Origin: Chloroflexota bacterium
GTDB taxonomy: Bacteria > Chloroflexota > Dehalococcoidia > Lucifugimonadales > Lucifugimonadaceae
DNA length: 43,567 bases
Assembly (NCBI GenBank): GCA_022567135.1
Contig: JADFHP010000006.1
Location: forward strand, 1 to 43,567
Direction: 5' to 3'
Shown here: positions 16,984-24,200 of the stretch, piece by piece
Layout: each line of letters starts with the position of its first letter
Position numbering within the stretch: position 1 is the stretch's first letter
Translations under genes and position numbers: made by a program
Notes under the pieces: model-generated
The model's database searches: none
Told to the model about the DNA's origin: nothing
What the model saw: only the letters and a program-made list of their open reading frames with translations

Positions 16984-17196
16984 ATCGTCTCGATAACTTT
17001 ATGAATCACAGATTATAACGAATCGACGTCGGAGTCTGTGTGCCGGGGGGACGCGGATTTGCCTGACGGCGGGCGCTTACTTACAATCAATACAGGCAAA
17101 CACAGCCGGCGGACCCGAATCTTTATCCTGCCGCATGGCCTTCTTCCCCGGCCAATCGCCTCCAAGTCACCCACAGTCACAGGGAGTGGATTACTC

Positions 17197-18030
17197 TTGG
17201 CAACCGAAACTGGCGTCGCGACTGAGACTATCTCCGATCTTCAGCTCACCTCTGCTCTCGCCGAGTATATCCAGACGGTTTCGGAGAACGATAAGAAGCA
17301 GGCCCAGACAGAGTTGGCCAAGTTCAGCCGCTGGGTAGGAATGGACAGGATGGTCTCCACGCTGGCGCCACCGGAGATAGGCGAATACAGCGACATTGTC
17401 AGCGCCAGGGGTACCGCTCCGGGCGCCACGGAGCGGCTGGCCGCGGTGAAGCTGTTCCTGGCATATCTGAAGAAGAATGGTCTGATCGAAACGGGCCTTG
17501 CGCAGCATTTACGTGTCCGGAAGGGGCGGTCAACCGGGGCGAAGAAGACCACGGCGGAAACCAGGGTTGTGCAGCTCACCAAGCAGGGACATACAGAACT
17601 GGTGAAGCGCCTTGAGGAGTACCGCGGAGGCCGGCAACATCTGGCCGAAGAGATCCATCGCGCTGCGCAGGACAAGGACGTCCGCGAAAATGCTCCACTG
17701 GAGGCGGCGAGGGAAGCGCAGGGTTTGCTGATGTCTAAGATCGCAGAGGCGGAAGCGACGCTTCGGGCCGCGGTCATCATCGACGAGTCCGGAAAGAAAT
17801 CCGCGAATCAGATCATCCGCCTGGGCAGTAATATCACGCTGCAGGATCCCGCCACCGGAAAATCGATGGCCTGTCAGATCGTTGAGGCTAACGAGGCCAA
17901 TCCGCTCAACTCGAAGATTTCGAATGTCTCGCCGGTTGGCGCGGCGGTCATCGGCAAGGCCGTTGGCGACCAGGTGACTGTCTCCACCCCCAGGGGCGAA
18001 CAGACCTACGTCATCGTGAAGACCCGGTAA
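17197..18030 (+). CDS. GreA/GreB-family transcription elongation factor with an extra N-terminal ~95-aa helical domain
   Basis: TRVVQLTKQGHTELVKRLEEYRGGRQHLAEEIHRAAQDKDVRENAPLEAAREAQG coiled coil plus LGSNITLQDPATGKSMACQIVEANEANPLNSKISNVSPVGAAVIGKAVGDQVTVSTPRGEQTYVIVK; TTG start at 17197. Confidence 0.9.
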   Translation: MATETGVATETISDLQLTSALAEYIQTVSENDKKQAQTELAKFSRWVGMDRMVSTLAPPEIGEYSDIVSARGTAPGATERLAAVKLFLAYLKKNGLIETGLAQHLRVRKGRSTGAKKTTAETRVVQLTKQGHTELVKRLEEYRGGRQHLAEEIHRAAQDKDVRENAPLEAAREAQGLLMSKIAEAEATLRAAVIIDESGKKSANQIIRLGSNITLQDPATGKSMACQIVEANEANPLNSKISNVSPVGAAVIGKAVGDQVTVSTPRGEQTYVIVKTR

Positions 18031-23072: not shown

Positions 23073-23450
23073 TTGGCGGATTTGATCGTGCACCAGCTAC
23101 CTCCACATATGAACAACCCGATGGCCATGGAAGCGGATTCGCGTCTCCGCCGAGAAAGGCTCCGAAAGGGCGGCCTGGGCGGAATGTCCACCAGTACGCT
23201 CATCGTCGTTCTGCCTTTCGCGCTCGTCTTCTGGGGCGCCCGCAGGATATATCGAAAAGCCACCGGCTACACAGCGCCGCCCGAGCCGGCGCCAGAGGTG
23301 CTGACCCGGTCTGATTTGAAGGCTGTGATGGACGATATATGTTCGGGGTCCGGGGCGGAGTTCGACGGTGACGGCAAGTCGGCAACCTGTGACCGCTGCG
23401 GCAAAGTGACCGGTGTGGCGTACGGCAAGCTCATGACGCACGGCTGGTAG
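23073..23450 (+). CDS. Small single-TM protein with C-terminal C3H putative zinc-binding motif, paralog 1
   Basis: RRERLRKGG-TM-RRIYRKATGY...CSGSGAEFDGDGKSATCDRCGKVTGVAYGKLMTHGW; start may be ATG at 23109. Confidence 0.72.
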   Translation: MADLIVHQLPPHMNNPMAMEADSRLRRERLRKGGLGGMSTSTLIVVLPFALVFWGARRIYRKATGYTAPPEPAPEVLTRSDLKAVMDDICSGSGAEFDGDGKSATCDRCGKVTGVAYGKLMTHGW

Positions 23451-23467
23451 GCACAGGCGTATCTCTG

Positions 23468-23809
23468 ATGGCACTCCTTCCCCCATTGCACGATTCGGAG
23501 AATCTGCGGGGGGAGATCGCGTACCGGCGGGAGCGGCTGACGAAAAGGGGCCCGTCGTTCTATTCGACCTCTCGGGTGATATTTATCGTCCCGCTGCTGG
23601 CCGTCTACTGGCTGATTCGAATGTTGTTCAGTCGGGCCACAGGCAGGTCTTTGCCAGGGCCAGAGGTATGGGTCACTGGAGACGGCGACCAATCGGCGAA
23701 CTGCGCCGGCTCCAAACGATCATCGAACGGCGGCCCGCTGGCGCGCTGCAGCGAGTGCGGAAAGTACGTCGGCCTGAGCAACGGCCGACTGCTGGTTCAC
23801 GGCCGATGA
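23468..23809 (+). CDS. Small single-TM protein with C-terminal C3H putative zinc-binding motif, paralog 2
   Basis: YRRERLTKRG-TM-RMLFSRATGR...CAGSKRSSNGGPLARCSECGKYVGLSNGRLLVHGR. Confidence 0.75.
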   Translation: MALLPPLHDSENLRGEIAYRRERLTKRGPSFYSTSRVIFIVPLLAVYWLIRMLFSRATGRSLPGPEVWVTGDGDQSANCAGSKRSSNGGPLARCSECGKYVGLSNGRLLVHGR

Positions 23810-23855
23810 GGCGTATTTACGGCAGTCGCCGGGTCGCTCGCCGGAGCTATTTCCG

Positions 23856-24200
23856 ATGAGGGGAATACCGCCACCAGTAGTGACGTACAGGGGTGAGGCG
23901 CGTCAGCGCATCCTTGCGCCCGAGGGGGCAAAGCCTGCGATTCCGATGATTGCGCTTCCTTTCTTACTGCCCGTATTGCTGCCGTTCTGGGCCGGGAGAT
24001 TCTTGTATCGAAAGATCACCGGCTATGAGCCGCCGCCACCGCAGGATGTGTTCGTGCCCGACCCGGAAGAGCTGGCGTCCGCGATCGACGCCATATGCGC
24101 AGGATCAGGACGCGAGGCTGATTCAGCCGGCGAGGGGTGCCCGGTGTGCGAACAGGACATCGGCGTGATGAACGGACGGCTGCTAACCCATATTCGATAG
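23856..24200 (+). CDS. Small single-TM protein with C-terminal C3H putative zinc-binding motif, paralog 3
   Basis: TM-GRFLYRKITGYEPPPP...CAGSGREADSAGEGCPVCEQDIGVMNGRLLTHIR. Confidence 0.75.
   Translation: MRGIPPPVVTYRGEARQRILAPEGAKPAIPMIALPFLLPVLLPFWAGRFLYRKITGYEPPPPQDVFVPDPEELASAIDAICAGSGREADSAGEGCPVCEQDIGVMNGRLLTHIR

Follow-up and report, generated by a model that had tools for sequence, protein, structure and literature searches.

What is a GreA-type transcript cleavage factor doing with an N-terminal region that resembles part of a recombinase? The question is raised by a gene (Table 1) in the window, i.e. the whole 43,567-nucleotide stretch of Chloroflexota DNA that was analyzed. Few bacterial transcription proteins are as conserved as the Gre factors, and every Gre studied experimentally has, to our knowledge, the bare two-domain form. 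The initial annotation saw a complete GreA retaining the D and E of its coiled-coil tip, and both Pfam domains are indeed above their cut-offs, GreA_GreB_N at residues 126-194 (43.6 bits, cut-off 24.5) and GreA_GreB at residues 204-275 (70.4 bits, cut-off 26.9), with D161 and E164 present. A Pfam scan of the window protein alone gave no match in residues 1-122. The AlphaFold model of the whole protein has a mean pLDDT of 88.6, with low confidence in the linker at 113-119, and it superposes on GreA and Gfh1 at a TMt of about 0.9; given a pTM of 0.56, the orientation of the N-terminal domain relative to GreA is not fixed by the model. The fused protein is the single GreA_GreB match in the window's genome (82.6% complete). 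Upstream, on the opposite strand, are rnpA- and yidD-like genes, and downstream an FAD-linked oxidase gene (neighbors named by eye). Elsewhere in the window, at 23073-24200, lie three adjacent small ORFs (113-125 aa), apparently tandem paralogues, each with a membrane segment and then a CxxC-type end, and with a 'G.L..H' tail in common.

Table 1. Features of the fused gene, in window coordinates
Feature	Position	Strand	Remarks
CB-domain-GreA fusion, whole gene	17197..18030	+	277 aa, TTG start, TAA stop (18028-18030)
AGGGAG, plausible Shine-Dalgarno	17181..17186	+	10 nt 5' of TTG start; read from sequence
Tyrosine-recombinase-type core-binding (SAM-like) domain, residues 15-110	17239..17526	+	Conservation, profile, structure, dN/dS
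Linker, residues 111-122, flexible, weakly constrained	17527..17562	+	pLDDT < 50 at 113-119; conservation, dN/dS
GreA coiled coil (GreA_GreB_N), residues 123-195	17563..17781	+	Pfam, AlphaFold
Coiled-coil tip D-V-R-E, residues 161-164	17677..17688	+	D161/E164 = E. coli GreA D41/E44
FKBP-like C-terminal GreA domain, residues 204-277	17806..18027	+	Pfam, structure match

The initial annotation likened some 95 N-terminal residues to the core-binding, SAM-like domain of recombinases and proposed a structure and profile check; AlphaFold, Foldseek and hhalign all give a core-binding (CB) domain. Residues 15-110 are a genuine tyrosine-recombinase CB domain, an assignment made because of a profile-profile match, the AlphaFold and Foldseek results, and four matching conserved basic positions considered below. 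In A1, an alignment of 77 homologue sequences, conservation in bits per column is 0.61 for residues 1-14, 2.16 for the N domain (15-109), 1.03 for the linker, 2.55 for the GreA coiled coil and 2.31 for the GreA C domain, and these sharp borders delimit the domain at residues 15-110. PF02899 (Phage_int_SAM_1) matches six of the 77 fusion members, at E 8e-5 for the best, and other members are matched by related integrase families, while a profile of the fusions finds an integrase N-terminal domain, 3nrw (E 0.013), and over residues 51-108 also picks up apparent recombinases elsewhere in the same genomes. Compared by hhalign with the CB domains of XerC/XerD from the window's own family, the N domain scores 64.3 over 91 columns (probability 97.5%, P 6e-12), as against 18.4 for the best of 100 column-permuted profiles, 10.6 for a reversed profile, 15.7 for the Xer catalytic domain and 7.6 for the GreA coiled coil set against the Xer CB domain. 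Chance helical similarity is ruled out by these permuted, reversed and unrelated-domain controls. AlphaFold gives a confident N domain of 4-5 helices (17-27, 30-47, 58-70, 77-93 and 101-104), and the top 25 PDB matches found by Foldseek for the isolated domain are recombinases without exception (prob up to 1.00). Its PDB neighbors are the CB domains of 3nrw (TM 0.73 over 102 columns), lambda Int (TM 0.74-0.77), Tn1549 Int, 3lys, XerA and Cre; against a viral library, phage integrases make up most matches. As the initial annotation also had it, the ORF contains no recombinase catalytic domain (R..H.R..Y), and GreA comes after the linker.

How widely, and for how long, has this arrangement been kept? 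Within the window's family the fusion is present in 56 of 61 genomes, full-length and co-linear, with exactly one copy per genome, and in the order 58 of 59 genomes match, nearly all with the full architecture and two in pieces. Of 148 genomes sampled across the class Dehalococcoidia about 138 carry it, and beyond the class so do 25 genomes of the phylum sample, so that an earlier guess that it might be lineage-wide in Dehalococcoidia, whose taxonomic check has now been run, was right but too narrow, other Chloroflexota families having the fusion too. The extension is not a matter of chance, with full-length co-linear homologues across the family, the order and most of the class. Exceptions within the class are the f39 genomes, which have stand-alone Gre only, and no fused gene was found in G154, G168, G202, G162 or G228 of the class sample; the f50 genomes are apparent exceptions, their fused gene being present but diverged. 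No Gre other than the fused one is encoded in the window's family or in family f44, which is Dehalococcoides-like and consists mostly of 1.4-1.9 Mb genomes in a single contig. A single-sequence scan of named genomes found the full-length form in Chloroflexota only. One genome, G175, encodes a fused-type GreA without the CB domain (L154/L204; G175:C18:147423-147902), with the tip DKDFRENAPLD and nested in the fused clade. On the GreA tree, which is unrooted, the fused proteins together with this N-less protein fall on one side of a supported branch and other stand-alone Gre opposite, so that no more than one fusion and one loss need be assumed (the f107 proteins, on a long branch, are less certainly placed). 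The distribution has the look of a single ancient fusion followed by one clear loss, and recent or multiple fusions are ruled out by the one-sided grouping on this unrooted tree. Viral contigs encoded no relative of the fusion, and matches in phage records were confined to the GreA part, none covering over 80% of the query; with these searches and the housekeeping genes alongside, a mobile-element or phage gene is ruled out. A second, diverged CB-GreA whose tip acids are lost occurs in G132 (L197; G132:C103:5474-6232), together with a normal fused copy. Shorter proteins of about 187 aa are encoded in two genera of family f81 (L222, G216:C58:22797-23345; L223, G207:C1:605-1180), where a separate stand-alone Gre is also present.

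Which Gre of the lineage cleaves? Work on E. coli GreA (PMC7527559) assigns the activation of cleavage to D41 and E44, and a supporting part in RNA polymerase (RNAP) binding to the globular domain. The equivalent D161 and E164 are invariant in all 77 aligned homologues, and of 124 fused rows, in which a few genes appear twice, 123 keep the pair. Of the stand-alone Gre from genomes that have the fusion, 64 have a tip that can be read (three rows, fragments or misassigned, having been set aside), and none of these keeps the pair; the usual tips of these paralogues (L139-L157, L229-L262) are GGTVDNAEY and GTSQTDAEY, the f50 form being strongly altered. From genomes that lack a fused gene there are 32 distinct stand-alone Gre; 20 of them have the D/E pair, and the others mostly keep one acid or have a D/D or E/E pair. 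Tip loss in the stand-alone paralogues maps largely to one tree clade, and because of this clustering the counts are a lineage pattern rather than 64 separate losses. Since the fused Gre keep the acid pair and the co-resident stand-alone forms have lost it, the fused protein is most likely, to judge from the sequences, the working transcript cleavage factor of its lineage.

What, then, might a CB domain do for such a factor? Of the domain's four conserved basic positions, R80 has a basic residue in 93% of fusions, K85 in 100%, R106 in 97% and K109 in 96%; for the Xer positions aligned with them the counts are 25/25, 25/25, 22/25 and 24/25. Median net charge of the CB domain is +5 in the fusions (+2 in the window's own), Xer CB domains being mostly negative. 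The shared basic positions support, short of proof, a putative nucleic-acid binding role for the domain. The account toward which we lean is of a working Gre factor kept near its substrate by a CB domain that would bind duplex DNA. The GreA coiled coil would enter the RNAP secondary channel and set D161 and E164 at the active-site metal, leading to cutting of the backtracked RNA, both steps being expected from conserved features of the Gre family. A CB domain taken from a tyrosine recombinase and joined to GreA via a flexible linker of about 12-16 residues would, from outside the channel, contact nearby duplex DNA, non-specifically or with weak specificity, and such contact would raise the local concentration of the factor at stalled elongation complexes. 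A tethering role on DNA is proposed with moderate confidence; homology, fold, selection, distribution with vertical inheritance, and tip conservation all come from computation. Recombinases hold DNA by a two-domain clamp, and an isolated CB half may bind weakly; the low net charge of the window's own domain, +2, also counts against the tether. In G175 the CB domain was lost and the tip kept, so the domain is not always essential.

All this presupposes that the N-terminal region is made and matters. That it is a fossil or an annotation artefact, with translation starting just before GreA or the domain being present without function, is extremely unlikely. With the closest species as reference, residues 1-14 have a dN/dS of 0.90, residues 15-110 of 0.089, the linker of 0.14 and GreA of 0.151, and remoter pairs, those from Dehalococcoides-like genomes included, mostly have the same pattern; the Dehalococcoides-like pairs give 0.006-0.035 for the N domain and 0.061-0.089 for GreA. 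Purifying selection on the N domain is thus at least as strong as on GreA in most pairs tested, which supports probable translation from the upstream start. The start position is common to the close homologues L002 (TTG) and L003 (GTG); another TTG candidate about 45 codons upstream is better on Shine-Dalgarno alone, but lies outside the conserved region. Near the GreA boundary a start codon of any kind is present in 57 of 77 homologues and ATG in just 16 of 77, from which translation does not generally start right before GreA, and median Shine-Dalgarno pairing is stronger at upstream than at internal starts (-6.4 vs -3.5 kcal/mol). An internal start before GreA, which the initial annotation had named as fatal to its idea, is ruled out by dN/dS and this start-site survey. 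In favor of an artefact are the one genome, G175, without the domain, and an acetylated K17 reported in GreA of Dehalococcoides CBDB1 (PMC7918482), whose numbering fits an internal Met (MTASGYKKLEDELSTLK; L092, L094, L103). By that numbering the public model may omit the CB domain, and public greA gene models in Dehalococcoides may start too late.

If the region is real, its partner could still be other than DNA, and the activity other than cleavage. Protein docking, on RNAP or another protein, is the main rival to the DNA tether: the CB domain would be a module for RNAP (e.g. the secondary-channel rim), a Xer recombinase or a repair factor, DNA binding having been lost, and the conserved basic residues could contact a protein partner. 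This is possible, though we doubt it. The f81 proteins, in which the CB domain and a Gre coiled coil with intact GDLSENAGY tip occur without the FKBP-like domain that aids RNAP binding, give the impression that recruitment could pass to the CB domain, and conservation extends to the non-basic F43, W46, G48, Y64, F87 and L88, most of which look like hydrophobic core. Against docking, the best-conserved polar residues are basic and are at the basic positions of Xer CB domains, and we know of no CB domain that binds RNAP. That the fused protein instead inhibits in the manner of Gfh1, the CB domain acting as regulator, is very unlikely; although the best single PDB relatives of its GreA half are Gfh1 and a GreA/Gfh1 chimera, the tip is not altered in the Gfh1 manner, the D..E pair being near-universal in fused rows, the loss sits in the co-resident stand-alone paralogue, and many genomes have no Gre besides the fused protein.

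With tethering to DNA as the preferred reading, the architecture suggests a rescue factor held on DNA or polymerase in a manner not described before. A broader and distinctly tentative proposal is that a branch of Chloroflexota has rewired RNAP rescue, its sole cleavage-competent Gre being DNA-tethered and its stand-alone Gre, where retained, a cleavage-dead secondary-channel regulator. If so, contact with DNA would decide where rescue takes place, with replication conflicts or repair sites as conceivable locations. A nucleic-acid-binding domain of a mobile-DNA enzyme has been fixed on a catalytically intact Gre and the canonical paralogue has lost its active tip, in a host lineage that is old and ecologically large (SAR202-type and Dehalococcoides-like bacteria). 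The pair offers a testable case of two secondary-channel factors dividing their labor, and with it the consequences of tethering a cleavage factor for transcription, fidelity or replication conflicts could be cleanly addressed. Searches of open-access literature gave general Gre papers only and none on a CB-GreA fusion; GreA, CB domains and long Gre fusions are each already known separately, and their CB-GreA combination was not found described.

How does the fusion compare with its separate relatives? With GreA (Pfam PF03449 and PF01272; E. coli GreA, 1grj) it has in common the coiled coil, the FKBP-like domain and the tip D and E, and differs in an added N-terminal region of 110 residues with the recombinase CB domain, and in the tip DKDxRENAP where the canonical one is GDLxENAEY; NCBIfam GreA models match the fused protein below their own cut-offs. 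With the CB domains of tyrosine recombinases (PF02899 and relatives; XerC, XerD, lambda Int, 3nrw) it shares the fold, the 91 co-linear columns and the basic positions; however, there is no catalytic domain and the linker runs into GreA. Gfh1 and other cleavage-inactive Gre paralogues of Thermus are paralleled by the co-resident stand-alone Gre, likewise without the catalytic acid pair, whereas the fused protein keeps the acids, and the stand-alone tips are of a type of their own. GreA is C-terminal in a longer protein, as here, in NCBIfam PRK06330 ('transcript cleavage factor/unknown domain fusion protein') and PRK14720, but these models, of 718 and 906 positions, match the fusion over its GreA part only, with no sign of a CB domain. 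A Gre-type domain also occurs within a multidomain protein, TPR-GreA/B-C-PIN, of predicted conflict systems (PMC8195603); there, however, it is the C domain only, with effector and PIN parts, whereas the fusion is a full GreA encoded by a vertically inherited gene of housekeeping type.
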